Shown one piece after another: positions 5,130-35,953 of a stretch of DNA of 39,167 nucleotides. The notes under the pieces are model-generated. The model was not told where the DNA came from. It worked only from the letters and a program-made list of their open reading frames with translations, and searched no databases. This DNA comes from Bacillota bacterium (GTDB lineage: Bacteria; Bacillota; Sulfobacillia; Sulfobacillales; JAIMBI01), in NCBI GenBank assembly GCA_021797815.1, contig JAJZYZ010000022.1:1-39167 (forward strand), in the 5' to 3' direction. The position numbers were made by a program, and so were the translations under genes. Each line of letters begins with the position of its first letter. Position 1 is the first letter of the stretch.

Positions 5130-6405
5130 GACAGATGCTCTCATCCAGGAGACGCTCGTGACCGAGGAGCTGCCGTCGGGCCTTCGGGTGTCGGTTATTC
5201 CCCGTCCCGGGCAGCGCCGGACCTACGCTACTTTCGCCACCTATTACGGATCCATCGACAGCCACTTCCGGCTGCCGGATTCCGGGCACACCGTGGATGT
5301 GCCGGACGGCATTGCCCACTTTCTCGAGCACAAGCTCTTCGAGAAGCCGGACGGCGACGTGATGTCTGATTTCAGCCGTCTCGGTGCCAGCACCAACGCC
5401 TACACCGAGTACCTCACGACCACGTATCTGTTCTCGACGACTCAGCACCAGGACCAGTGTCTCCAGATCCTGCTGGACTTTGTCCAGGAGCCGTACTTTA
5501 CGGCCGAGAATGTGGAGAAGGAGAAGGGCATCATCGAGCAGGAGATCCGGATGTATCTGGACATGCCCGGCGATCGCCTTCACTCCAACTTGATGCGGGC
5601 GCTGTACGTCGGCCATCCGGTGCGGCTCGATATTGCGGGCTCCGTGGATACCATCCGGCAGATTACGCCGGAGGAGCTCTACCAGTGCTATCGGACCTTC
5701 TACCATCCGTCCAACATGTGGGTGTTTGTGGACGGAGACGTCGATCCCGATCGGGTCATCGCCGCGGTCTCTGACAACCAGGCACGCCGGGATTACAAGC
5801 GGCAGCCCCCCATCCCTCGCATCCTGCCGGAAGAGCCGGCGGCCATCAATCAGGAGCGCATCGCGCAGCGTATGCCGGTGGCGCTTCCCATGCTGGCCAT
5901 CGGATACAAAGATCCGGTGGCGGATCTGCGGGGCCCGGCGCTGGCGCGCCGGGAGCTTGTGACCGACCTCATGTGGAGCCTCGCCATCGGGCGCTCGTCA
6001 CCCCTCTTTTTTGAGCTCTACGAAGCTGGGCTCATCAACGATCGCTTCGGCGCGCAGTACGAGGCGGCCCCCACCTATGCCTACTCCGTCCTGAGCGGCG
6101 AGACTCGGGATCCAGACGCACTGCTCGAGCGGATAGAGCGCGGGCTGCACAACGTCCACTTCGACGAGGAAGCGCTCGAACGTCACAAGCGCCGGAATCG
6201 CGGCCAGTACCTGGCCCTTTTCAACAATCCCGGTCAGCTGGCTTACGCCTACAACAGTTTTCACGTGCGCCGGCTGGAGCTCTTTCATTACCTGGACGAA
6301 CTGGACGGCATCACGCTTGACGCGATCGAAGAGCGATTTCACCAACACGTGCGCGCGGATCGGCGGGCGCTGTCGCTGATTGAGCCGGAGGGTGCGGAGC
6401 GGTGA
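5122..6405 (+). CDS. ymfH: M16 family zinc metallopeptidase, YmfH type
   Basis: A 427-residue M16B peptidase, the catalytic partner of the preceding protein. The inverted zinc motif is H66-F-L-E69-H70 (IAHFLEHKLFE), followed by GASTNAYTEYLTTTY and by the EKGIIEQEIRM segment around residues 139-141, which should supply the third ligand. The second domain shows the pitrilysin-like FFELYEAGLINDRF region. Start is GTG 5122: GGGGAGG ends 9 bases before it and it overlaps the upstream stop by 8 bases. The longer frame beginning at 5041 reads through the upstream gene and is not used. hutH follows immediately. The exact substrate cannot be read from sequence. Confidence 0.88.
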   Translation: MRETDALIQETLVTEELPSGLRVSVIPRPGQRRTYATFATYYGSIDSHFRLPDSGHTVDVPDGIAHFLEHKLFEKPDGDVMSDFSRLGASTNAYTEYLTTTYLFSTTQHQDQCLQILLDFVQEPYFTAENVEKEKGIIEQEIRMYLDMPGDRLHSNLMRALYVGHPVRLDIAGSVDTIRQITPEELYQCYRTFYHPSNMWVFVDGDVDPDRVIAAVSDNQARRDYKRQPPIPRILPEEPAAINQERIAQRMPVALPMLAIGYKDPVADLRGPALARRELVTDLMWSLAIGRSSPLFFELYEAGLINDRFGAQYEAAPTYAYSVLSGETRDPDALLERIERGLHNVHFDEEALERHKRRNRGQYLALFNNPGQLAYAYNSFHVRRLELFHYLDELDGITLDAIEERFHQHVRADRRALSLIEPEGAER

Positions 6406-6407
6406 GC

Positions 6408-7919
6408 ATGGCCGATTCAATTGATGGGGAGCATCTCAGCATCGAGGACGTGGTCGCCATCGCCTGGAAGCGGGCGCCGATTCCGGCCATATCCGCCCCG
6501 GCTCTCCGTCGCATGGCGGAAAGCCGTCAGGTAGTCGAGCGGGCGGTTGAGGCCGACCGCCCGGCATACGGCATCACCACCGGGTTCGGCCGCTTCCAGG
6601 ACGTGGCCATTCCGGCCGACAGCCGCCGGGAACTCCAGAAGAATCTCATCCGCAGCCACGCCGCCGGTGTCGGCCCGCTTCTGCCGGCCGAGGTCGTGCG
6701 CGCGATGCTGATCCTGCGGGCCAATGCCCTCGCCAAGGGTTATTCCGGAGTGCGGGCGGTGGTCGTCGAGCGCCTGCTGGACCTTCTCCGACACGATATC
6801 CTGCCGGCCATTCCGAGCCGCGGCTCGGTGGGGGCGAGCGGCGATCTGGCCCCGCTGGCCCACCTGGGTCTGGCGCTTTTGGGCGAGGGAGAAGTATTTT
6901 ACCGCGGGGAACGCCGCGAAGCCGGCGAGGTGCTTCGGCAAGCAGGCCTTGACCGCCTGGAACTGGAGGCGAAAGAAGGTCTCGCGCTCATCAACGGCAC
7001 ACAAATGATGACGGCCTATGGCGCCCTCCTGATTGCCCGGGCGCGGCAGCTTGCAGACGCCGCCGACATGGCGGCGGCGCTCTCGGTGGACGTGCTGCGC
7101 GGCATCCCGGATGCCTTCATGGCCGAAGTGGCTGCCGTCCGTCCTCATCCCGGCCATGCCCTCGTCGCCTCCCACCTCCGGACTGCGCTTTCCGGGAGCC
7201 GACTTACGACCCGCCCCGGCGAGCTCCGGGTGCAGGACGCCTACTCGCTTCGCTGCACCCCGCAGGTGCACGGTGCGGCCCGGGACGCGCTCGCACACGT
7301 GGCGGAGGTCGTGGCGCGCGAACTCAATGCGGCGACCGACAACCCCCTCATCTTCGCCGAACAGGACCAGGTAGTGTCGGCCGGCAATTTCCACGGCGAG
7401 CCGCTGGCGCTCACTCTCGACTATCTAGGGATGGCGCTGGCGGAGTGGGCCAGCATCAGCGAACGACGGCTGGAACGCATGGTAAACCCGGCGCTTTCCG
7501 GTCTGCCGGCCTTTCTCATCGAGGACGGCGGGCTGCACTCCGGGCTCATGCTGGCACAGTACACCGCTGCCGCCCTGGTGTCGGAGAATAAAGTGCTGGC
7601 CCACCCCGCAAGCGTTGATTCCATCCCTACGTCGGCCAATCAAGAGGACCATGTGTCCATGGGTTCCATCAGCGCCGAGAAGGCATGGCGGATTCAGGCG
7701 AACGCCGAGTATGTGGTCGCGGCCGAGCTCATCGCCGGTGCGCAGGCGGCGGACATCGTGGGCGCGGACAAGCTCGGTTTGGGCACGGCACAGGCATACC
7801 GGTTCGTACGCGAGAGCGTGAGCTTTCGCGATCGCGACCGCCCGCTCGGTGTTGAGATTGAAGCCGTGGCAGCCCGCCTGCAGGCGGGCGAGTTTCCGCA
7901 CATCTTCGCCGACTCCTGA
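6408..7919 (+). CDS. hutH: Histidine ammonia-lyase
   Basis: A 503-residue enzyme that deaminates L-histidine to trans-urocanate. The Ala143-Ser144-Gly145 triad that forms the MIO electrophile sits in GSVGASGDLAPLAHLG, at the canonical position for HutH. Other HAL marks are NLIRSHAAGVG (the Ser-His pair at the selectivity site rather than Phe), VQDAYSLRC, TDNPLIF and SIPTSANQEDHVSMG. No hutU, hutI or hutG is present in the window, so it is not part of a visible complete hut operon; instead it is packed against the M16 pair. ATG 6408 is preceded by GGAG with an 8-base spacer; GTG 6402, which overlaps the upstream stop as GTGA, is an alternative adding two residues. Substrate specificity for histidine is likely but not proven. 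Confidence 0.93.
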   Translation: MADSIDGEHLSIEDVVAIAWKRAPIPAISAPALRRMAESRQVVERAVEADRPAYGITTGFGRFQDVAIPADSRRELQKNLIRSHAAGVGPLLPAEVVRAMLILRANALAKGYSGVRAVVVERLLDLLRHDILPAIPSRGSVGASGDLAPLAHLGLALLGEGEVFYRGERREAGEVLRQAGLDRLELEAKEGLALINGTQMMTAYGALLIARARQLADAADMAAALSVDVLRGIPDAFMAEVAAVRPHPGHALVASHLRTALSGSRLTTRPGELRVQDAYSLRCTPQVHGAARDALAHVAEVVARELNAATDNPLIFAEQDQVVSAGNFHGEPLALTLDYLGMALAEWASISERRLERMVNPALSGLPAFLIEDGGLHSGLMLAQYTAAALVSENKVLAHPASVDSIPTSANQEDHVSMGSISAEKAWRIQANAEYVVAAELIAGAQAADIVGADKLGLGTAQAYRFVRESVSFRDRDRPLGVEIEAVAARLQAGEFPHIFADS

Positions 7920-12390: not shown

Positions 12391-14898
12391 ATGCAAGAGG
12401 CCGCTCCTGGACGCCCGGTTCTGAATCTGGGGCCTCCCGCCACGCTTCTGGAAGCCTGGCGGGAGTGGGCCCGGAGTGTCGACATGCTCCCACGGGTGAC
12501 GATCACCCCCGGGGAGCTCCTGTCGCGCTATCTACTGGCACGCCTTCCCACCTCCCTTGACCACCGCATATCCACCCTGGCCGAGCTGGCATGGACCCTG
12601 CGTCCGTCCCGTCTCACCTTCTTTCCCGACGACATTCTTCCGACGCTCCTCGCGGGCGACGTCCGCGCCGTCCTGCCAGAGCCGTGGCGGGGACCGGGCG
12701 CCGCCGAGGCTCTGATTGAAGCGGCCCTGCGTCTTCGCCGCCACGGGGAGACGCCGTACTCGCTGCCCGCCATTCCCTCGGCCTGGCGGACTGCCCTGGA
12801 GCACACCTGGCGTCGGCTCGAGCAGGTGCTCCGGCGCGGATATGACGAGACCCGGCTCTATCAATACGTGGCTTCGCGGTCCCACGACTCTCTGGTCAAT
12901 ACCCGCATCGCCGTCTTCGGAATGCTGGAAGCCAAGCCGGCGCCAGCCGCCCTCCTGGCTGCCCTCGCGCGAGAGTTGCCGGTGACGGTGTTCGTGCCCT
13001 GGCTTTCTCAGAGTGCCGACGCCTATGTCGAGCCGTGGGTGGCGTGGTGGCGGCAGCACGGCGCGCTCGTCGTACAGGAAGCCCGCGAGTGGGGTCCGTC
13101 CCATCTGGTCGGAATCGCCGTGCCGGGAACGGGCCTCGACTGGATCCGGACTGCGGTTGACGTGGGAGCCCCGGCGCAATCGGCGACGAGGTGGGCGCTT
13201 TCGGCCCCGTCGTTGGAAGAGGCGGCGGCGGCGGCGCGCCGGCTCCGGCGCGAGGGAGTGCCGGTCATGGTAACACCTGCCCCGGCAAGTCCGTCGGAGC
13301 GCCTTCGCACGGCGCTCCGTGCGGCGGCGCGAGATGCCGGTGCCGATGCGATCCTGACCTGGATCCGCCTCTCTTCGCACGAAGTGCCCGAGTCGGAGCG
13401 AGAGGAGCTGCGGGTAAATGCCCGACGGCCGAGCCTGTGGCCCCAGTCGGTCACGGACCACCACCGGGATCTTCGCCAGGCCCTTGATGCAGTTCTCCGG
13501 ACCGCGCGTTTTTCCGATGTTCCCGCGTCTCTCGGACGCCTGGCCGACGCGGCGGGCTTTCCGTTCTTGTGGCCGGCCGAGGAAGTGGAACGGCTCTCTA
13601 TGTGGGACGAGGCTGGACTGGCGCCCAGTGCGGACGGCCTTCTGATATGGCTGGAGCGGGCGGCGGACAGGCCCCTGACGGAGGCCGGACTCCCGGCAAG
13701 CAGCCTGTGGGAGCTGCGCGGTACCCATCATGCCCGGCTCATTGTCACGAGTCTTGACACGGAGGCGTTCGAGCCGGCCCCGGAGTGGGACGTGGGACCG
13801 GGGGAGGCTTGGATTGCGGCCGCGCATCCTGAGTGGCGCGCCCGGCGGGAGATGGCGCTCCGTCACCTGAAGGCGCTCACGCTCCAGTCCGCCGACGTGG
13901 TCTACGTCGCCGGGTCGCCCGGCCGCCCATGGCCAGCGGACATCCATCCGACCGAGATCATCGAGGGGGGACGCTCAATTTGGGGCTCGGGGCTCGTGGT
14001 GTCACGGATGCGCCGCACCGGTGCATACGGACCGTTCGACGGACGGTTCGACCCCGCGACGGTCACGCGTCCCGCCTCGCCCAGCGGCTACGAGAACTTT
14101 GGCCGCTGCCCCCTGCAGTACGCCTTCAAAGCCCTTGCCGTCGAGCCGTGGCCCGTGGACCGGCCCGAACCCGACCCGACGGAGTTTGGCCTGTGGGCTC
14201 ACTGGACCCTCGAACATATGCTGTCGGGGCCAGAACGGGGCCGGCCCGCACCCGCATCTCTTTTCCGGGCCGTGCGGCGGCAGGTGTCCCGGGCGGTGGC
14301 CCTGCATCCCCCGTCCGAAGGCGTACTGCCCGCCCTGCTGGAGCTGGGCGAGGAGTCGCTGGCCGCCGACCTCGCGTGGTATCTCATGAGCGATTGGCCG
14401 GCAGGACCGGTCGACACGGAGAAGCACTGGGTTCTCGGCGGACTGTCCGGGATGATTGATCGGGTGGAGAAGATCGGCGACGGGATTGTCGTGGTGGACT
14501 ACAAGACGGGACGGCTTCCGAACGCCGCTCCGTCGCCACTGGCGCTTCAGCTTCCCCTCTACGCGGAGGCGGCGGGCCGTATTTATGGGGTGACACCGGA
14601 TCAGGTGCGGGCCCGTTATCAGGGCGTGCGGTCCCATAACAAGTTCCGGTCGGTCGAGCTTCCGGGGCCGACGGCATCCCGAATGGCGGAGGCGCACGGG
14701 GTGATGGCCGGCATTGACCAGGCCATCGACGCCGGGCAGCTCTATTTGAACCCCCATGAGGGCGCCTGCCGATCATGCGACTTCCGGCCCGCCTGCACCT
14801 ATGAGGCGCTGCGGGATGCCTCTCGGAAAAGTCTCGGCGATCCTGCCTTTGCTGCCCTCTGGGATCGCGTTCCCGACGCCGGCGGAGAGGAGTCCTGA
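12391..14898 (+). CDS. AddB-like PD-(D/E)XK nuclease with a 4-cysteine iron-sulfur staple
   Basis: About 835 residues. The C-terminal third is a RecB/AddB-type nuclease: YENFGRCPLQYAF, then D690 in GGLSGMIDRV and D703-Y-K705 in VVVDYKTG, with the later QLPLYAEAA motif. Four cysteines, C573 and C793-x2-C796-x5-C802, have the AddB/Cas4 iron-sulfur arrangement, with the same C-x2-C-x5-C end as Bacillus AddB. The N-terminal two thirds resembles the degenerate helicase part of AddB (VTITPGELLSRYLLARLP) but no Walker A is present; the aligned place reads LNLGPPATLLEAW. Bacillus AddB is about 1160 residues, so this form is short. ATG 12391 is a compromise: its ribosome site is weak, and GTG 12277 would run into the divergent HAD gene. 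The next gene starts on its stop codon (TGATG). Confidence 0.82.
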   Translation: MQEAAPGRPVLNLGPPATLLEAWREWARSVDMLPRVTITPGELLSRYLLARLPTSLDHRISTLAELAWTLRPSRLTFFPDDILPTLLAGDVRAVLPEPWRGPGAAEALIEAALRLRRHGETPYSLPAIPSAWRTALEHTWRRLEQVLRRGYDETRLYQYVASRSHDSLVNTRIAVFGMLEAKPAPAALLAALARELPVTVFVPWLSQSADAYVEPWVAWWRQHGALVVQEAREWGPSHLVGIAVPGTGLDWIRTAVDVGAPAQSATRWALSAPSLEEAAAAARRLRREGVPVMVTPAPASPSERLRTALRAAARDAGADAILTWIRLSSHEVPESEREELRVNARRPSLWPQSVTDHHRDLRQALDAVLRTARFSDVPASLGRLADAAGFPFLWPAEEVERLSMWDEAGLAPSADGLLIWLERAADRPLTEAGLPASSLWELRGTHHARLIVTSLDTEAFEPAPEWDVGPGEAWIAAAHPEWRARREMALRHLKALTLQSADVVYVAGSPGRPWPADIHPTEIIEGGRSIWGSGLVVSRMRRTGAYGPFDGRFDPATVTRPASPSGYENFGRCPLQYAFKALAVEPWPVDRPEPDPTEFGLWAHWTLEHMLSGPERGRPAPASLFRAVRRQVSRAVALHPPSEGVLPALLELGEESLAADLAWYLMSDWPAGPVDTEKHWVLGGLSGMIDRVEKIGDGIVVVDYKTGRLPNAAPSPLALQLPLYAEAAGRIYGVTPDQVRARYQGVRSHNKFRSVELPGPTASRMAEAHGVMAGIDQAIDAGQLYLNPHEGACRSCDFRPACTYEALRDASRKSLGDPAFAALWDRVPDAGGEES

Positions 14899-17882
14899 TG
14901 GACGGCGGCCGCCTTCCGGTGGACTGGGCGGAGCGCGAGCGCGTCCGTACCGACTTTGACCACAACCTGGTGGTGGAGGCGGGAGCCGGTACGGGCAAGA
15001 CCACGCTGCTGGTCGATCGCACGCTGCACGCCATTTCCACGGGCACCCTGCGGCTTTCGCGGATGGTTATCGTCACGTATCTGGAAAAGGCCGCCATTGA
15101 GCTCCGGCAGCGGATCCGGGCGCGGCTGGAACAGTCGGCCCACACCGGAGAGGTGGCGGCACGTTCTTTTGTGGAGCGCGCCCTGTACGAGCTGCCCACG
15201 GCCCGTATCGGCACCCTCCACGGTCTCGGCCATGGAATCCTCTTGCGGCACGCGATCGAGATGGGGCTCGACCCCAACATGGTGGTGTGGGACGCGGTGG
15301 AGACGGACCGGCAGCGGCGCCTCGCGCTCCGGCAGTGGTTCACCCGGCCGCATCCCGAGGTTTTCAATGTCATGCGCCTCGGTATCAGCTACCCAGAATT
15401 CGAACGTGTGCTGGAGGCCGTCCCGGAACTTCCCGGAGACGAGACGGCGTGGGGAGAGCCGCCCGAGTCGGTTGACGACCTGCTGAAAATGTTTTCGACT
15501 ACACTCGATCGCCTCTCTGACGCGATTGCGGCGGCGGCGCCCGATTCTGAGGATCGCGGCGTGCGGCAGGTGGCCGAATGGCGGGAGAAAATCGGGCGGC
15601 TGCAGAGTCTTCCGGCGTCCGCCGTCGCCGGGCGCCTGTACGACCTGAAGCTTGAGGCCCCCGTGGGCAGTCAGGAGAATTGGGGGTCCCACCGGACATC
15701 CCTGGTGGAGCAGAAAGCGGAACTCCGGGCGCTCCGCGCGCGCCTGGACACATGGCAGGCGGCCGTGGCGGGTGCGGCAGGCCAGCGGCTCGTGGCCGCC
15801 GGCCAGGACTTCGCACGGTTCTTTCAGACCTGGCGCCAGGAGCGGCGGGCGGTGATATACGACGACCAGGTCCGCCTCGTGGCGGCGGCGCTTCGGGATA
15901 GCGCCATTCGGCAGGACGAGGCCGCCTCGCTCGACGCCATCATGGTGGACGAGTATCAGGACACGTCGCCGGTCCAGGTGGAGATCGTGAACGCACTCGC
16001 TGCGGGGCCGAACGGGGCCGGAGAGGCGCCGCCGCCGGCCGGGCGCCTCGTTCTGGTCGGCGACCCGAAACAGTCCATCTATGGATTCAACGGGGCCGAC
16101 CTGACCCAGGCGCAGCGCTGGTCCACCGATCTAGTGGCCAGGGGCGGCGCCGTACTGGTGCCGATCACCGTCAACTTTCGAAGTCGTCCGCCCATCCTGG
16201 ACGCGGTGAATCAGACCTTTGCCGCCGTCTTCAACACCGACGCCTCGCGCGATCCTCAATACCGACCGCTGGTTCCTTATCGCGAACCACAGCCAGGGCC
16301 GGCCGTTCACCGTTTCCGCCTGCATGACGATGAAAAGGGAACACAAAAGAAAAGACAAAGAGAACAGAACCTGTCTTCGGACGCGGCCAGGGCGCGGGAG
16401 GCCGCCGCTGTAGCAGCGCTCATCGGCCGGGCCCTCAATGAAGGATGGATGGTTGGTGACGGACGAGAAAGGCGTCCCCTGCAACTCCGAGACGTGACCA
16501 TCCTGGTGCCGGGAAGGACGGGCCTGGACCTTTATCACCGCGCTCTCGATGAGGCGGGAATTCCTGTGCTGGGTGGAGCGGGACGCGACTTCTATCGGCG
16601 CGATGAGGTGCGCGGACTTGGTGCGGTGCTTCGGGCAGTGGTGTTGCCGGAGGATGCCCTGGCCGTGGTCGCCGCGCTCCGATCGCCCTTCTTCGGGGTC
16701 GAGGACCGGGAGCTCATGCGGCACCGGACGGCGGGCGGCCGCTTCTCCCTTGATCGGCCAGGGGGGCCGGAAGGACCCGTGCGCGACGCACTCGGAACCC
16801 TGAGCACGTGGGCCGGGTGGTGGATGGACAGGGGGCTCACAGAGGTGCTGGAAAGGGCCGCGGCGTTAGTGCGCGAACAGTTTGACGCCCGCGAGGCAGC
16901 CAATGTGAACGCTCTCATCGAGGAGTGCGCCCGCTACGCGTCTAGATGGGGAGCGGCCGAGTATGTCGACTGGCTGTGGGCACGGATAGTGGCGGGAGAC
17001 GAGGGCGATGAGGCCGTGCCGGACGCGGCTTCGGATGCGGTGAGCTTTTCGACCATCCACCGGGCCAAGGGGCTTGAGTGGCCCCTGGTCATTGTGGCCA
17101 GCCTGCGCCATGAACGTCCGCCGCGCCGCGACCCGCTCGTGTATGACCCGCGGAGCCAAGAGTTCGGCCTTCGCATCGGCGGGCGCAAGACCGCGTCGTT
17201 CGCGAAGGTGGAGGAAGAGGTCCGTGCGGAGGAGGACGCAGAGCGCAGGCGGCTCTGGTATGTGGCGCTTACCCGTGCGCGTGACCATCTCGTGATCCTG
17301 GAGTCAGACCCCGAGGTCGTGCTTTTCAAGAACCTGGCGGTCGAGGAGGAGTCCTGGCCGGCGGCAGAACCCGTCCCGGCGCGGGGTGCCCTGGCAAGTC
17401 GCCCTGCGGGGCCAGTGTTCGAGCCACGGCGGTCCATCTCGGCGGAAGTTCTGGCGGATGAGCCGAATCCCGGAGCGGGCTCGCATCTCCGGATGCGGTC
17501 GTGGGTGCGGCGCATGCTGTCCCGGTCAGCATCCGCTCGCACGGATCTGGTGGCGAGCGCGCCGCCGGCGCTTCGCGAAGGACTTTTGTGGATTAAAGGG
17601 CGCCCTTGGGTGCCGGCTGGTTCGGCCCGGACCGGGGTTCCGGTCCATGTGGAAGGGAGTCCGGGCGTTGACGACGTCATCGACGTGATGGTCGAGACCG
17701 AGGCGGGAGCCATTCTCGTGAACATCGTCGACGGCCGGAATGCGGGAGGGACCCGAGACGCCCTGGCCCGGATGCTGGCGGCCCTGGCCGCGGCAGGAAT
17801 GCCGGTCGCGGAGGGGGTGCTGGCGGCCCCTGACATATGCCAGGAGTGGCACGTCGAGACCCGGTACGAGCTTTCCGACTAG
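14898..17882 (+). CDS. AddA-like UvrD/RecB superfamily 1 DNA helicase
   Basis: A 994-residue SF1A helicase. Motifs in order: Walker A EAGAGTGKTT (K34), Ia VTYLEKAAIELRQRI, the GTLHGLGHGILLRHA segment, Walker B MVDEYQDTSPVQ, III LVGDPKQSIYGFNGAD, IV VNFRSRPPIL, V FSTIHRAKGLEW and VI RRLWYVALTRARDHL. In AddA these are followed by a nuclease domain. Here the final 100 residues look like a remnant of one: DDVIDVMVETEAGAILVNIVDG (residues 941-946 for VNIVDG) sits where the family has an acidic residue and then VDYKT, but the lysine is gone. The preceding gene supplies an intact nuclease and overlaps by one base (TGATG), with GGAG upstream. Together they probably process double-strand DNA ends for recombination. 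Helicase call certain; the lost nuclease is inferred. Confidence 0.9.
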   Translation: MDGGRLPVDWAERERVRTDFDHNLVVEAGAGTGKTTLLVDRTLHAISTGTLRLSRMVIVTYLEKAAIELRQRIRARLEQSAHTGEVAARSFVERALYELPTARIGTLHGLGHGILLRHAIEMGLDPNMVVWDAVETDRQRRLALRQWFTRPHPEVFNVMRLGISYPEFERVLEAVPELPGDETAWGEPPESVDDLLKMFSTTLDRLSDAIAAAAPDSEDRGVRQVAEWREKIGRLQSLPASAVAGRLYDLKLEAPVGSQENWGSHRTSLVEQKAELRALRARLDTWQAAVAGAAGQRLVAAGQDFARFFQTWRQERRAVIYDDQVRLVAAALRDSAIRQDEAASLDAIMVDEYQDTSPVQVEIVNALAAGPNGAGEAPPPAGRLVLVGDPKQSIYGFNGADLTQAQRWSTDLVARGGAVLVPITVNFRSRPPILDAVNQTFAAVFNTDASRDPQYRPLVPYREPQPGPAVHRFRLHDDEKGTQKKRQREQNLSSDAARAREAAAVAALIGRALNEGWMVGDGRERRPLQLRDVTILVPGRTGLDLYHRALDEAGIPVLGGAGRDFYRRDEVRGLGAVLRAVVLPEDALAVVAALRSPFFGVEDRELMRHRTAGGRFSLDRPGGPEGPVRDALGTLSTWAGWWMDRGLTEVLERAAALVREQFDAREAANVNALIEECARYASRWGAAEYVDWLWARIVAGDEGDEAVPDAASDAVSFSTIHRAKGLEWPLVIVASLRHERPPRRDPLVYDPRSQEFGLRIGGRKTASFAKVEEEVRAEEDAERRRLWYVALTRARDHLVILESDPEVVLFKNLAVEEESWPAAEPVPARGALASRPAGPVFEPRRSISAEVLADEPNPGAGSHLRMRSWVRRMLSRSASARTDLVASAPPALREGLLWIKGRPWVPAGSARTGVPVHVEGSPGVDDVIDVMVETEAGAILVNIVDGRNAGGTRDALARMLAALAAAGMPVAEGVLAAPDICQEWHVETRYELSD

Positions 17883-18054: not shown

Positions 18055-18891
18055 TCACGCGTCGGTCAGGGATTTTCGGACCACGAAGAAACCGCCCACC
18101 GAGTGAACGCGAAAGAGACCGTCGGCGCGGATCCGAGCCGAGATGGCATCGTGGGCCAGCTGGAGCGCCCGGCCGTAGAGGGCCTCGTCGCCGCCCGCCC
18201 CGCCCAGGTGATAACGGAGGGGGCCGGAGTCGAGATAGCGCACGGCCGCCTCCGCATTCGGGAACAGGAAGCCACCCGGCCTTACGATTCGCTCCGGAGG
18301 TTCGGGGAAGAACCCCGCGCCATTTTCGAGCGAGAAGCGGTGCGAGACAGATTCGAGCGCAGCGGGGCCGAGGCCCAATGCCTCTCGGACTTCCTGCCCG
18401 ATCTCGCCAAGTTCCCGATATGCATGCGCGCCATTGGTTGCGCAGGCGAGGAGACCGCCCGGTCTCAACACGCGCCAGGCTTGGGACAGGGCTCGCTGGA
18501 TGTCCGGTACGTGATACAGCATGAAGTGACAGCCGACCCAGTCAAACCTGTCGGCATCGAACGGAAGCTCCTGGGCGTCGCCGAGGACGATGTGCGCGCG
18601 GGGGTCGCCCGCCGTCTCTCGCTGCAGCCGCTCGAGAATGCCGGCGGAACGATCGAGGCCCACATACTCCGGATTATCGGCGACGACGCGCCGGATGGCC
18701 CGGTACCATCCGCCGGTGCCCGCCCCAACGTCCAGCACCGAGGTGGGCGCAGGGCCCCGCTCTAGGAGCTGCCTGGTGATGTCGGCAAACACGTCCGGGT
18801 CACCCAGGCCATACAGGCGATGGGTGTCGATACGGGTCTGGAGCCGTTCGTCCGACCCGTACTGGGCGTCAAGCTGACCCGGATCGGTCAT
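18055..18891 (-). CDS. Class I SAM-dependent methyltransferase (Methyltransf_11/UbiE type)
   Basis: A 278-residue protein. Motif I is VLDVGAGTGGWYRAI (SAM binding), followed by YVGLDRSAGIL, the DAQELPFDADRFDWV post-motif and HVPDIQRALSQAWRVLRPGG, all standard for small-molecule methyltransferases of the UbiE-like group. The C-terminal 100 residues (ending GGFFVVRKSL) are a cap whose substrate I cannot name. Start ATG 18891 overlaps the stop of the S9 peptidase gene as ATGA, so the two are co-translated. Transcription converges on the AddA-like gene, with the 13-bp hairpin between. Confidence 0.88.
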   Translation of the reverse strand: MTDPGQLDAQYGSDERLQTRIDTHRLYGLGDPDVFADITRQLLERGPAPTSVLDVGAGTGGWYRAIRRVVADNPEYVGLDRSAGILERLQRETAGDPRAHIVLGDAQELPFDADRFDWVGCHFMLYHVPDIQRALSQAWRVLRPGGLLACATNGAHAYRELGEIGQEVREALGLGPAALESVSHRFSLENGAGFFPEPPERIVRPGGFLFPNAEAAVRYLDSGPLRYHLGGAGGDEALYGRALQLAHDAISARIRADGLFRVHSVGGFFVVRKSLTDA

Positions 18892-24986: not shown

Positions 24987-25425
24987 GCGCCGCGTCCGCG
25001 CCGGTGTTGCCGGCCTTGCCGCCGGACCGGTCACGGGCCTGTTCCATGGTGTCGCAGGTCAGGATACCCATGACTACGGGCGCCTCGCCCCGGGCATTGA
25101 GAGCGGCGACGCCGGCCGTGCTGTGCTGGGCCACGTACTCGAAATGGGGAGTCTCCCCCCGGACCACGGCCCCAACGCAGATGAGCGCCGCATATCCACG
25201 GGCGTGGGCGAGGCTTGCCGCGTAAGGGATCTCGAACGCTCCCGGGACCCGGATGAGGTCAATCCGCTCCGCCTCCACGCCGTGCCGTATGAGAACGTCG
25301 ACCGCACCTTCGGCCAGGGCGTCGGTCACACTCTGGTTAAAACGGCTCTGGATGATGGCAAACCGCGCCTGCGGACCGACCATGAACCCGCCCTCCAGCA
25401 CCCGTGCGCGTTTCCTGATGCTCAT
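24925..25425 (-). CDS. ribH: 6,7-dimethyl-8-ribityllumazine synthase
   Basis: A 166-residue lumazine synthase, the penultimate step of riboflavin synthesis. Motifs: FNQSVTDALAEGAVD, VPGAFEIPYAA, then GAVVRGETPHFEYVAQHSTAGV with the catalytic H94 and NTGADAALTALEM. ATG 25425 has AGGAGG 6 bases upstream and overlaps the ribBA stop as ATGA. It is the last gene of the rib operon, and its 3' end lies under the 3' end of birA on the other strand. The extra tail after ALEM (VSLRARLEEGASEG) is ordinary for the family. Confidence 0.95.
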   Translation of the reverse strand: MSIRKRARVLEGGFMVGPQARFAIIQSRFNQSVTDALAEGAVDVLIRHGVEAERIDLIRVPGAFEIPYAASLAHARGYAALICVGAVVRGETPHFEYVAQHSTAGVAALNARGEAPVVMGILTCDTMEQARDRSGGKAGNTGADAALTALEMVSLRARLEEGASEG

Positions 25426-26663
25426 CGGCTGCCTCCTGTCCCACTCGATTCGAGCCAGTGTCCGAGCCGGTCGCGCTTGGTGGCAAGGTAGCGGGCATTG
25501 TCCGGTCCCGCGTCCACCTCGATCGGCACCCGCTCGGCAATCGTGAGGCCGTACGCTTCCAGGGCGTAGTACTTGTCGGGATTATTGGTCAAGAGCCTCA
25601 CTGAATGGACGCCGAGATCTGCCAGGATCTGAGCGCCGACTCCGTAATCGCGCAGATCGGCCGGAAAACCCAGCGCTTCATTGGCGCTCACCGTGTCGTA
25701 CCCGCGTTCCTGGAGGGCGTAGGCGCGGATCTTGTTGGCCAGACCGATGCCACGTCCCTCCTGGCGCATGTATAAGAGCACTCCGCGACCCGCCTCGCCG
25801 ATCTGGCGCAGCGCCTGGTGCAGCTGGGGTCCGCAATCGCAGCGCAGGGAGGCAAACACGTCGCCGGTCAGACACTCGGAGTGCACCCTGGTCAAGACGG
25901 GCGCCCCATCATCGATAGACCCCATGGTGAGGGCTAGATGGGTCAGATCTGTGAGAGGCTCCCGATAAGCGTGGGCCGTAAAGACGCCATAGTCGGTCGG
26001 GAGACGGCTCTGGCCCATTTTCTCAAACAGCGGCTCTTCGTGGAGGCGGTAGCGGATGAGGTCGGCGATCTCGAGGACCGGCAGTCCGTGCTGGCCGGCA
26101 AACTCCCGCAGCTCAGGCTTCCGCATCATCGACCCGTCTTCGCGCAAGACCTCGCACACGACGCCGGCGGGATGCAGGCCGGCCAGGATGGCGAGGTCAA
26201 CTGCCGCCTCCGTATGTCCGGGACGGCGCAGCACACCGCCCGGCTTGGCGGCCAGGGGAAAGATGTGGCCGGGCCGCACGAGGTCGCCGGGCGCACTTCG
26301 TGGGTCGGCGAGTACGGCAATGGTGCGGGCCCGATCCCGCGCCGAGATCCCGGTGGTGACGCCGTGGCGGGCGTCGACCGATACCGTGAACGCCGTGCGC
26401 ATGGAGTCTTGGGGGGCGCTCACCATGAGCGGCAGCTCCAGGGCCTCCAGGCGTTCCGGTGACATGGGCACGCAGATGAGCCCGCGGCCGGAGCGGGCCA
26501 TGAAGTTGATGGCGTCGGCGGTGACGTGCTGCGCCGCCATCACCAGGTCTCCCTCATTCTCCCGGCTGGCGTCGTCGATGACGACCACCATGCCACCCGC
26601 CCGGATGGCGGCCACCGCGGTCTCCACGGCTGTCCGGGCCTCTTGTTCCTGCGGGGCGCTCAT
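25422..26663 (-). CDS. ribBA: Bifunctional 3,4-dihydroxy-2-butanone-4-phosphate synthase / GTP cyclohydrolase II
   Basis: A 413-residue fusion. Residues 1-205 are the RibB part (DDASRENEGDLVMAA, RPGHIFPLAA, RRPGHTEAAVDL). Residues 206-400 are the RibA part, with zinc ligands C264, C275 and C277 in HSECLTGDVFASLRCDCG and the QEGRGIGL loop. It makes both precursors of riboflavin, from ribulose 5-phosphate and GTP. All key residues of both halves are present. ATG 26663 has AAGGAGG 7 bases upstream and overlaps the ribE stop as ATGA. Confidence 0.96.
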   Translation of the reverse strand: MSAPQEQEARTAVETAVAAIRAGGMVVVIDDASRENEGDLVMAAQHVTADAINFMARSGRGLICVPMSPERLEALELPLMVSAPQDSMRTAFTVSVDARHGVTTGISARDRARTIAVLADPRSAPGDLVRPGHIFPLAAKPGGVLRRPGHTEAAVDLAILAGLHPAGVVCEVLREDGSMMRKPELREFAGQHGLPVLEIADLIRYRLHEEPLFEKMGQSRLPTDYGVFTAHAYREPLTDLTHLALTMGSIDDGAPVLTRVHSECLTGDVFASLRCDCGPQLHQALRQIGEAGRGVLLYMRQEGRGIGLANKIRAYALQERGYDTVSANEALGFPADLRDYGVGAQILADLGVHSVRLLTNNPDKYYALEAYGLTIAERVPIEVDAGPDNARYLATKRDRLGHWLESSGTGGSR

Positions 26664-29993: not shown

Positions 29994-30965
29994 ATGAATG
30001 ACGATAATGCCCCGGTGGGCGTAAGAGAAGAAGAGACCCTGTCCGCCGTCGTCGCCCAGATTGAACGGGCAGTGGTCGGAAAGGCCGCCGTGGTGAAGCT
30101 TCTCTTGACCGCGCTCGTGACTGGCGGCCATGTGCTGCTGGTTGACGTGCCCGGTGTGGCCAAAACGCGCCTCGCGCGATCGCTGGCCCTCTCCTTGAAT
30201 TTGAGCTTTGCCCGTATTCAGGCTACCCCGGACTTGCTGCCGGGCGATGTCATGGGCGTGTCGGTCTACGACCCCGCGAGCGGCCAGTTCCGATACCGAC
30301 CCGGCCCCGTCTTAAGTCAGCTGGTCTTGGTGGATGAAGTGAACCGGGCCACGCCCCGCACACAGTCGGCCCTGTTGGAGAGCATGGAAGAGCACCAGGT
30401 GACGGTGGACGGCGTGACCCATCCCATACCGTCTCCGTTCATGGTTCTGGCCACGCAGAACCCCATCGAGATGGAAGGCACCTACCCCCTGCCGGAAGCA
30501 CAGCTTGACCGATTCCTCCTGGCAACTCCGGTCGGATACCCCGATCTCGCCGATGAGATGGAAATGGTCAGCCGGCTCGGCCAGGACGAGCCGATGGATC
30601 GTTTCCAGGCCCTGGCCGGCCCGGAGGATGTTCTCCGCTGGCGGCGGGCCGCACTCGCCGTTCACCTGGCGGAACCGGTGCAGCGCTACCTCGTGGAGGT
30701 GGTGCGGCAAACGCGCGCGCTTCCCCGGATACAGCTCGGTGCGAGCCCGCGGGCGGCCCTGTGGTTCTCGCGGGCCGTGCGCGTGTACGCCTGGCTTGAC
30801 GGACGCACCTATGTCCTGCCCGACGACGTCAAGGCCCTGGCCGGCCCCGTGCTTGCCCACCGCGTCCTCCTGTCGGCGGATGCCGAGGTGCTCGGACGCA
30901 CGGGGTTGGCAGTGGTGGAGGAGGTTCTGGCGGCGGTACCGGTGCCGACCGAGCAGATCGGATGA
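29994..30965 (+). CDS. MoxR family AAA+ ATPase
   Basis: A 323-residue MoxR ATPase, thought to act as a chaperone in assembly of protein complexes together with DUF58/VWA partners. Walker A is DVPGVAKTRLA (51-61; the MoxR variant with Ala in place of the last Gly), then TPDLLPGDVMG, Walker B LVLVDEVNRATPR, the sensor segment VLATQNPIEMEGTYPLPEAQLDRF and the C-terminal lid with GASPRAALW. ATG 29994 follows GAGGAA by about 8 bases. The DUF58 gene starts on its stop (ATGA). The three-gene order MoxR-DUF58-membrane protein is a known conserved unit. Confidence 0.95.
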   Translation: MNDDNAPVGVREEETLSAVVAQIERAVVGKAAVVKLLLTALVTGGHVLLVDVPGVAKTRLARSLALSLNLSFARIQATPDLLPGDVMGVSVYDPASGQFRYRPGPVLSQLVLVDEVNRATPRTQSALLESMEEHQVTVDGVTHPIPSPFMVLATQNPIEMEGTYPLPEAQLDRFLLATPVGYPDLADEMEMVSRLGQDEPMDRFQALAGPEDVLRWRRAALAVHLAEPVQRYLVEVVRQTRALPRIQLGASPRAALWFSRAVRVYAWLDGRTYVLPDDVKALAGPVLAHRVLLSADAEVLGRTGLAVVEEVLAAVPVPTEQIG

Positions 30966-32176
30966 ACCGGACGAGCGAGATCCTCCGCGACCTTGCCATC
31001 CTGGTGGCGGTGGTGGGGCTTTTCACCGGCCGACCCGCGGTCGTGGCGGCGGCTGCATTCGTCGTCGGTCTTTGGCTCATCTCCAACATATTTGCCCGCC
31101 GGGCGCTGCGCCACATGTCAACGACCCAGCGCCTCAGTCCTCACGCGGTTGCGATCAACCAGCCAGCCGATCTGGCCGTCACCGTGACCAACGCCTACAA
31201 CTGGCCGGTCCCCCTTTTGGAGTGGTCGGATCAACTCCCCGACGGTCTGGAGCCGGTCGCGGCCAAGACTGCCATGATCTCAACCTCAGAAGGTCGGCGG
31301 CCGGCAGTCTACGGTCGTTACAGCATGCGCCGCTGGGAGGAGGTGACCCAGCACGTCACCGTGAAAAGCCAGCGCCGCGGCCGGTATATTCTCGGCCCGA
31401 TTTTTGTGGAGCTGCGGGATCCCTTGGGGGTGACCGACGCCGATAAAACCACGCCCGCCTCGGCCGTGCTGACCGTGTTTCCCGCCCTGTTTCCCGTTCC
31501 CTCGGCGCTTGTCACGCCAACCGCACCGCATGGGGAAAGGCGCGGCCCGCCGTGGAATCCTCCCGACCCCTCACGCTACATCGGGGTGCGGCCCTACGAG
31601 CCGGGCGACTCACCACGGCTCATCCACCCGCACGCCAGCGCACGGACCGGCACCCTGCAGGTTAAGCGGCTCGAGACGGAGGCGGACAATCAGGTAGAGC
31701 TGGTGGCGCTGGCTGCCACGGCGCCGTTCCTGTGGGAGGGGATCGACCCGAACCGTTTGGAGTCCCTGATCTCGGCCGCCGCCTCGGCAGCCAATTACTA
31801 CATCCTGCAGGGCACGGCGGTGGGGTTGTCCCTGGCGGGGTCCGTTTATGGTCAGCCACGCGGCGTGTTCCTCACGCCCAAAGCAGGCAGGGATCAGTGG
31901 CTGCGCATTCAGACCGCGCTCGCGTGGGTGACGCCGGGGGGAGGGGAGGCGGGAGACCTCACGCGCACGCTCCAGCGCCTCATCGGTCATGCGCGGCCTC
32001 GCTCCCAGGTGTTTATCTTCACGTGCTATTTTTCCGAGGGCTGGCTGCCCTATATCGACCGGATGCGGCGGCGGCAGCTCAAAGTCGTGTGGGTGGCGGT
32101 AGGGGATCGGGGTCACTGGCCGCAGATCCCGGGCGTGCGCATGGTGCGCTGGACGCCCACCGTGGAGATACCGTGA
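30962..32176 (+). CDS. DUF58 domain protein with two N-terminal membrane segments
   Basis: A 404-residue protein. The N-terminus has two hydrophobic segments (about 8-25 and 28-45); a beta-rich middle follows, then the DUF58 core VRPYEPGDSPRLIHPHASARTGTLQVKRLE, a slightly altered form of the usual R-x-Y-x-PGD-x-x-R-x-I-D-W-x-A-S-A-R. The C-terminal part is von Willebrand A-like. DUF58 proteins are the usual partners of MoxR ATPases, with a proposed but unproven role in cell-envelope assembly or stress. ATG 30962 overlaps the moxR stop as ATGA; the following gene also starts on this stop (TGATG), so all three are coupled. Confidence 0.9.
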   Translation: MNRTSEILRDLAILVAVVGLFTGRPAVVAAAAFVVGLWLISNIFARRALRHMSTTQRLSPHAVAINQPADLAVTVTNAYNWPVPLLEWSDQLPDGLEPVAAKTAMISTSEGRRPAVYGRYSMRRWEEVTQHVTVKSQRRGRYILGPIFVELRDPLGVTDADKTTPASAVLTVFPALFPVPSALVTPTAPHGERRGPPWNPPDPSRYIGVRPYEPGDSPRLIHPHASARTGTLQVKRLETEADNQVELVALAATAPFLWEGIDPNRLESLISAAASAANYYILQGTAVGLSLAGSVYGQPRGVFLTPKAGRDQWLRIQTALAWVTPGGGEAGDLTRTLQRLIGHARPRSQVFIFTCYFSEGWLPYIDRMRRRQLKVVWVAVGDRGHWPQIPGVRMVRWTPTVEIP

Positions 32177-34480: not shown

Positions 34481-35953
34481 ATGCAGACCGGAACGCCTCA
34501 GTCCCCCGGCGAAAGCCTTCGGGCGGTTCGCCTCGATAAGTGGAAGACCCTCCGGGAGGAGGGTCGCGATCCTTTTCGCCAGACACGATTTGTGCGCACG
34601 CATGCCTTATCGGAGGTTCGCGCGGGGCATCCCGGCAACGACGGCGTCACTGTCAGAGTTGTGGGGCGCGTCCGGGCCATTCGCCGCCACGGCGGCGCGG
34701 CCTTTGTGGATGTGGAAGATGTTTCGGGACGTTTGCAGCTTCACGTAGAGCGCGGGCAGTCCGAGGCGTTTTCACTATTGGACCTCCTTGATCTGGGAGA
34801 TCACGTGGGGGCGGCCGGAACCGTCTTTCAGACGCGCCGCGGCGAGGTCACCGTTTCCGTTAACGAGCTGGTCATCCTGGCCAAGAGTCTTCGCGGTCTG
34901 CCCGATAAGCGGGAGGGCCTGCGGGATGTCGACGCCCGCTACCGGCAGCGCTACCTCGATCTCCTGGCCAATCCCGATGTGCGAGAGGTCTTCCGCATGC
35001 GCTCGGACATGGTCCGTCTTGTGCGGGAGTTCCTGGTGGAGAAGTCGTTCGTGGAAGTGGAGACGCCCATTCTCCTCACGCTGGCGGGCGGTGCTGAGGC
35101 TCGTCCCTTCGCCACGCACCATAATGCGCTCGACATGACCCTTTACCTCCGCATCGCCATGGAGCTCCATTTGAAGCGGCTCATCGTCGGCGGGTACGAG
35201 GCCGTCTACGAGATTGGCCGCGTTTTCCGGAACGAGGGCATCGATACCCGGCACAGCCCCGAATTCACCATGCTGGAACTGTACTGGGCCTACCACGACT
35301 ACGAGGACATGATGGATCTGGTCGAGCAGCTGGTGGCGCATGTCGTCTCCCAAGTGCGAGGCAGCCTGCGGTTCGAAAGCCAGGGGCACATGCTGGACTT
35401 CACGCCTCCCTGGCCGCGCGTGGATCTGACCGAGCGCTTTCAGGCGAAGACCGGCGTCTCCTGGTTTGATGTGACCACGAGAGACGCGGCTTACGCCCTC
35501 GCGCGGCGGCACCACGTCGAGGTGCAGGCGGACCAGACGCGCACGCAGATTCTGGACAAGATCACGAGCCAGCTGGTGGAGCCGGATCTGGTGGAGCCGT
35601 CGTTTCTCGTTCATCATCCGGTAGACATCTCCCCGCTCGCCAAGCGGCGGGGAGACGACCCCCGGCTTACCGAGCGTTTCGAGGCCTTCTGCCTCGGGCG
35701 CGAACTTGGCAACGGCTTCTCCGAACTCAACGATCCGGTGGACCAGCGGCGCCGGTTTGAGGAACAGCAGGAAGAGAGGCGACGGGGAAACGACGAGATG
35801 CCGGAGCTGGACGAGGATTACCTGACCGCACTCGAATACGGCATGCCGCCGACAGCCGGAGTGGGACTCGGCATCGAGCGCCTCATGATGGCAGTGGCCG
35901 GGGTATCCGCCATCCGCGATGTCATCTGGTTTCCTGCGCTGCGCCCGCTGTGA
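34481..35953 (+). CDS. lysS: Lysyl-tRNA synthetase, class II
   Basis: A 490-residue class II LysRS. The N-terminal OB fold binds the tRNA anticodon (VRVVGRVRAIRRHGGAAFVDV). The catalytic domain has RYLDLLANPDVREVFRMRS, motif 2 YEIGRVFRNEGIDTRHSPEF with the following EFTMLELYWAY, and motif 3 TAGVGLGIERLMM. Length is normal for the bacterial enzyme. ATG 34481 has only a very close GAGAGG, so it may rely on coupling with greA, whose stop is 5 bases upstream. The next gene begins on the lysS stop (GTGA), an unusual tight link for a synthetase gene. Confidence 0.96.
   Translation: MQTGTPQSPGESLRAVRLDKWKTLREEGRDPFRQTRFVRTHALSEVRAGHPGNDGVTVRVVGRVRAIRRHGGAAFVDVEDVSGRLQLHVERGQSEAFSLLDLLDLGDHVGAAGTVFQTRRGEVTVSVNELVILAKSLRGLPDKREGLRDVDARYRQRYLDLLANPDVREVFRMRSDMVRLVREFLVEKSFVEVETPILLTLAGGAEARPFATHHNALDMTLYLRIAMELHLKRLIVGGYEAVYEIGRVFRNEGIDTRHSPEFTMLELYWAYHDYEDMMDLVEQLVAHVVSQVRGSLRFESQGHMLDFTPPWPRVDLTERFQAKTGVSWFDVTTRDAAYALARRHHVEVQADQTRTQILDKITSQLVEPDLVEPSFLVHHPVDISPLAKRRGDDPRLTERFEAFCLGRELGNGFSELNDPVDQRRRFEEQQEERRRGNDEMPELDEDYLTALEYGMPPTAGVGLGIERLMMAVAGVSAIRDVIWFPALRPL

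Follow-up and report, generated by a model that had tools for sequence, protein, structure and literature searches.

Textbook AddAB and RecBCD enzymes destroy both DNA strands until they meet Chi, after which the 3′ strand is spared, and they also attack phage DNA. We asked what becomes of this scheme in an acid-loving Sulfobacillus relative whose addB–addA gene pair appears to encode one nuclease rather than two. The pair lies in a contig stretch of 39,167 nucleotides, which is referred to here as the window; all addB and addA features below are on its forward (+) strand. A preliminary description of the pair had proposed that the first protein keeps the nuclease and the second the motor.

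The addB-like gene (12391–14898) begins with an ATG at 12391, at a conserved MQEAAPGRP start that is the same in a congener (G001), ends with a TGA at 14896–14898 and encodes an 835 amino acid protein of the PD-(D/E)XK nuclease family. Its C-terminal RecB-type nuclease domain (residues 561–835; 14071–14895) matches Pfam PDDEXK_1 with an E value of 5e-28 and contains the catalytic D703-Y704-K705 (14497–14505), together with D690 and Q720. The intact nuclease and the four cysteines of the preliminary description were recovered at the same residues: Cys573 (14107–14109) is the first Fe-S ligand, and Cys793, Cys796 and Cys802, within CRSCDFRPAC (14767–14796), are the remaining ones. From this four-cysteine motif we infer an Fe-S cluster. 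Across 38 addB–addA pairs from the order of Sulfobacillus, window included, the AddB nuclease site is intact in every case (38/38), with D690, D703, K705, Q720, C793, C796 and C802 invariant and Cys573 present in all 37 alignment rows that cover it.

The window's AddB lacks a Walker A, as had been claimed, but this is no novelty, since most of the AddBs outside the Bacillus type that we checked lack one as well. Sibling AddBs are also without it except for a GFQSGKT match in two G012/G024 open reading frames, a probable chance occurrence upstream of the conserved N-terminus. Profile alignment of the order's AddBs with canonical AddB extends over the whole length (E 2.8e-26), and the N-terminal part alone aligns at E 4e-5 (probability 70%), which supports homology of the whole protein, more weakly for the N-terminal part. 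An AddB structure prediction built with 42 distant relatives reached a pLDDT of 48.6, and the model was not used.

Directly downstream, the addA-like gene (14898–17882) overlaps the addB stop by one base (TGATG, with the shared A at 14898), and the two genes are adjacent in all 38 loci of the order that we read. It encodes a 994 amino acid UvrD-type helicase (Pfam UvrD-helicase/UvrD_C). Consistent with the full set of SF1 motifs previously noted, every motif that we checked is intact within the SF1A helicase region (residues 1–802; 14898–17303), namely the Walker A GAGTGKT (residues 29–35; 14982–15002), DEYQDT, GDPKQ, NFRSR, TIHRAKG and VALTRAR. The residues that we checked in Walker A, Walker B and motifs III–VI are invariant across the 38 pairs (K34, Q392, R428, H721, K724, R785, R793 and others). 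The nearest solved relative by sequence is Bacillus subtilis AddA (3u44_A, E 5e-32), and the same chain gave the top structure alignment (Z 31.5 over 676 residues, rmsd 4.0) to an AlphaFold model of the protein with a mean pLDDT of 75.6. The canonical AddA Q-motif glutamine before Walker A is replaced by a D...xR pattern (window 14898–14990; AddA residues 5–35), which we take to be closer to RecB than to Gram-positive AddA; R13 of this pattern is found in 38/38 order members and also in two relatives (G050 and G058).

The AddA C-terminal tail (residues 803–994; 17304–17879) reads as a degenerate and shortened nuclease domain. By alignment, D929 (17682–17684) retains the position of the first metal-ligand Asp, and N942-I943-V944 (17721–17729) stands in place of (D/E)-x-K, with Q-V-L there in congener G001. 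VNIVDG does occupy residues 941–946, where VDYKT had been expected, and N942/V944 align with the catalytic pair: the window reads ...VEGSPGVDDVIDVMVETEAGAILVNIVDG... against ...VHGTAWMGQADLVVRTAGGWIVVEYKTD... in the intact AddA of another order member (G007). Most of the nuclease domain upstream of D929 is deleted in the window. Just two lysines occur in the tail (in FKN and IKG), neither in a D/E-x-K setting; an intact D-(D/E)-x-K elsewhere in the tail was looked for and not found, and a Pfam search detected no nuclease domain in the AddA helicase protein.

We nevertheless regard the tail as a degenerate nuclease domain rather than an unrelated extension, because a profile of the window and G001 tails scored 31.2 (E 4e-4) against canonical AddA nuclease domains, whereas none of 200 column shuffles exceeded 24.3, and because AlphaFold models a strand-strand-helix-strand core at residues 926–977 (pLDDT about 70–78). 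These results contradict the possibility, raised in the preliminary description, that the tail lacks a nuclease fold. AddA structure alignments with good rmsd stop near residue 829; those reaching residues 986–993 have an rmsd of ~22 Å and are thus alone no proof of the tail fold. At the sequence level, the nuclease domain of AddA is catalytically dead and is being reduced in size, which leaves a recognisable nuclease site in AddB alone. The claim of a single-nuclease, single-motor complex therefore holds in its first half, whereas a single motor is not new, since one SF1A motor is also what drives B. subtilis AddAB (PMC4027173).

Among the 38 pairs of the order, the AddA nuclease is intact in one, so the lysine loss of the window extends to nearly all of the relatives surveyed. 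The exception is G007, whose AddA reads VVEYKT and matches canonical nuclease domains with an hhalign probability of 97.7%. A degenerate tail of ~180–200 amino acids is present in 8/38 (the window, G001, G008, G011, G020, G021, G027 and G029), and the tail is deleted, with essentially none left, in 29/38; these include sister genera and Sulfobacillus acidophilus, whose 799 amino acid AddA ends just past motif VI. Taken singly, the tail of G020 and those of family f3 (G011 and others) fall below significance against canonical nuclease profiles, and we read them as nuclease remnants on account of their position and shared Asp. In two further order members (G005 and G030, estimated to be 95–96% complete), no AddA match exceeded the threshold; addAB may be truly absent from them or may lie in assembly gaps.

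Outside the order, within the same class, 12 of 13 AddA relatives whose tails were read and aligned keep (D/E)xK (G050 twice, G042, G056, G052, G059a and six further loci), and the remaining one, that of G058, is cut off by the contig end. The AddA equivalog model was also run across the phylum; among the best matches, which were those listed, complete AddAs measured ~1150–1480 amino acids, and the shorter frames were few and were partial matches. Loss of the AddA nuclease is thus order-wide, recurrent and, within the class, lineage-specific. G050 carries two distinct compact AddA genes (L172 and L186), both with (D/E)xK. The usual D-x-K pattern was not matched in the AddB adjoining the second, and this pair is a possible case of the opposite (AddB) loss.

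Trees built from the helicase region place the intact G007 inside the order, with family f3 and apart from the window's family f1 (98% SH-aLRT). Constraining all nuclease-less members to one clade costs 17.4 log-likelihood units and is rejected (p-AU 0.006), which indicates that the AddA nuclease was inactivated at least twice in the order. In both families, degenerate tails are scattered among deleted ones, so that deletion of the tail probably occurred at least three times, judging from the topology and assuming no regain. The tail appears to have been inactivated first and then, often, deleted.

What would such a complex do at a DNA end? The AddA nuclease of B. subtilis is positioned for cutting the 3′-terminated strand (PMC4824097), and Chi bound in AddB withholds the 3′ strand from it as degradation of the 5′ strand continues (PMC4027173). 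Since the known AddA nuclease cuts the 3′ strand, and since this is the strand that Chi withholds, an enzyme lacking that nuclease would be expected to trim the 5′ strand only. AddA, given its intact motifs, would serve as a 3′→5′ SF1A motor unwinding DNA ends, and AddB as the sole nuclease, its Fe-S-stapled RecB-type domain cutting only the 5′-terminated strand. 3′ tails for RecA would be made from the outset, and a Chi switch would lose its main target, so that no Chi-dependent nuclease switch would operate. By analogy with the published systems, we consider it fairly probable that the window encodes a single-nuclease AddAB-like complex of this kind, in which AddA unwinds, AddB degrades the 5′ strand only and the Chi switch is absent. 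The one-strand cutting and altered use of Chi suggested in the preliminary description would likewise fit published AddAB mechanics. Extending the analogy to the order, we see an even chance that most of its members have converged on 5′-strand-only resection, with 3′ tails produced without Chi control.

Neither subunit reaches the Gram-positive equivalog cut-offs, with AddA at 199 bits against a cut-off of 707.65 and no addB_Gpos (Gram-positive-type AddB) match in the genome, and the mechanics of the B. subtilis enzyme may therefore not apply here in every detail. For this reason, and because an active AddA nuclease, one of the defining features, is missing, we call the system AddAB-like. The Chi and latch residues of B. 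subtilis (F68, F210, E129 and R629) are unrecognisable in the aligned AddBs, the family being too divergent. As they are unreadable in G007 and in nuclease-less members alike, they offer no grounds for linking loss of the nuclease to loss of Chi.

Alternatively, both strands may be cut by the AddB nuclease, whose strand preference a Chi-like site would shift; the complex would then be a functional analogue of RecBCD, its nuclease carried by the opposite subunit. RecBCD does work with one nuclease (PMC1185551), and loss of the AddA domain could conceivably free room for AddB to reach the 3′ strand. In the solved AddAB, however, each strand exits through a channel of its own, and each channel is lined by a different nuclease domain (PMC4027173); the AddB nuclease studied here sits in its normal C-terminal position, with its Fe-S motif kept and with no added linker in alignments. 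We therefore consider cutting of both strands by AddB unlikely.

The 5′-strand-only reading could also fail if the missing 3′-strand nuclease were supplied in trans, for example by a Cas4-like or Dna2-like PD-(D/E)XK protein. The genome that contains the window (97.75% complete) encodes three further PDDEXK_1 proteins, one Dna2/TM0106-like helicase-nuclease and two Cas4-like, along with a RecJ-like protein and a weak SbcD-like match. None of the three adjoins addAB, no other candidate lies beside the pair, and the gene that most commonly follows addA in relatives is NHL/propeller-like, not a nuclease, which leaves supply in trans with a slim chance. The Dna2/TM0106-like protein (L007:4549-7926, contig 65) is a single chain of 1125 amino acids whose N-terminal region is PD-(D/E)XK-like and whose C-terminal part is an SF1 helicase. 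Elsewhere in this genome we found no second addA/addB pair, no RecC (PF04257) and no NurA; no RecD exceeded its cut-off (TIGR01447 scored only 24.8 bits against 310, in a helicase that is unrelated), and the one other UvrD-type helicase is PcrA/UvrD-like. The pair described here thus appears to encode the genome's only AddAB-like end-resection complex.

A third possibility is that the locus is decaying toward loss, as relaxed DNA-repair genes do in endosymbionts. Between the window and G001, dN/dS was 0.08–0.22 in the AddA helicase, 0.18 in the AddB nuclease and 0.31–0.54 in the AddA tail (by the Nei-Gojobori method, with dS near 1, so that the values are approximate). The weakly constrained tail is what decay would predict, the lack of an AddA match in G005 and G030 could be taken the same way, and the Wolbachia of isopods have lost the AddA nuclease domain through a stop codon (PMC4224334). 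Against this, dN/dS stays at 0.08–0.23 across the AddA helicase and AddB, all the other catalytic residues are kept in 38/38 pairs, and the two genes remain side by side, no other such system having been found. Selection keeps the motor motifs in AddA and the nuclease residues in AddB; with the catalytic and motor residues that we checked in addB and addA invariant in the order, we see no sign of a dead locus, and decay toward loss seems to us very improbable. That non-canonical residues still let the AddA tail cut DNA, as survival of the fold core and D929 in the genus might allow, is hardly credible, given that both the E/D and the K are gone (N/V in the window, Q/L in G001), that most of the domain's N-terminal part is missing and that 29 relatives have lost the tail altogether.

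The 5′-strand-only AddAB-like complex that we favour would differ from each of the systems it resembles. It shares with B. subtilis AddAB (3u44/4cej; TIGR02785, TIGR02773) the addB–addA pair, the SF1A motor in AddA and the C-terminal RecB-type nuclease with a four-cysteine Fe-S motif in AddB; it differs in the loss of the AddA nuclease, in the shorter AddB (~835 versus 1166 amino acids) and in the lack of an AddB Walker A. Mycobacterial AdnAB is likewise a heterodimeric UvrD-like/RecB-nuclease end-resection enzyme, and AdnB is among the structure matches of our AddA. AdnA and AdnB each carry a motor and a nuclease, whereas here motor and nuclease are each confined to one subunit. RecBCD, too, derives from a two-nuclease design and has one nuclease still active, but as a mirror image: the nuclease-like domain of RecC, the AddB counterpart, is dead and that of RecB, the AddA counterpart, is live (PMC1185551), so that the opposite subunit is inactivated. 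Here no RecC, and no RecD above its cut-off, was found in the genome, and the nuclease is not in the motor subunit.

An AddA without its nuclease domain has one precedent that we found, in isopod Wolbachia, where a premature stop in addA removed the domain and left a detached reading frame behind (PMC4224334). That loss is recent and occurred in an endosymbiont, whereas the one described here is order-wide, recurrent and old, with the AddB nuclease conserved. The AddA of Thermus thermophilus is only 857 amino acids long, its nuclease state being undiscussed (PMC9751324); by this length, nuclease-less AddA may be more widespread than the order of Sulfobacillus. In the literature that we searched, we found no description of this order's variant. 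What appears to be new is the repeated, order-wide loss of the AddA nuclease with the AddB nuclease always kept.

Repeated loss of the 3′-strand nuclease beside an invariant 5′-strand nuclease raises the question of whether Chi control is needed at all. If the 5′-strand-only reading is correct, these complexes would be a natural equivalent of Chi-activated AddAB and would put to the test whether Chi regulation can be dispensed with. The intact, degenerate and deleted AddA tails also provide a decay series for the evolution of RecBCD-type asymmetry, and S. acidophilus, with its short AddA, is available as a cultured type strain for purification.

Finally, we examined the surroundings of the pair. 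The gene most commonly found after addA in relatives, S. acidophilus and G007 included, encodes a ~340 amino acid NHL/propeller-like protein that is probably membrane-anchored (for example L147:6819-7829, L155:6284-7357 and L160:7854-8879, in minus-strand numbering, and others). A nuclease domain split off into the next gene was considered and rejected, that gene being NHL/propeller-like. In the window, a methyltransferase gene on the opposite strand (18055–18891) follows addA in place of the NHL/propeller gene. The other neighbours that we inspected (6402–7919, 25422–26663, 29994–32176 and 34481–35953) are ordinary, and comprise an aromatic amino acid lyase, RibBA, a MoxR-type ATPase with a DUF58 protein and a class II (D/K/N) aminoacyl-tRNA synthetase.
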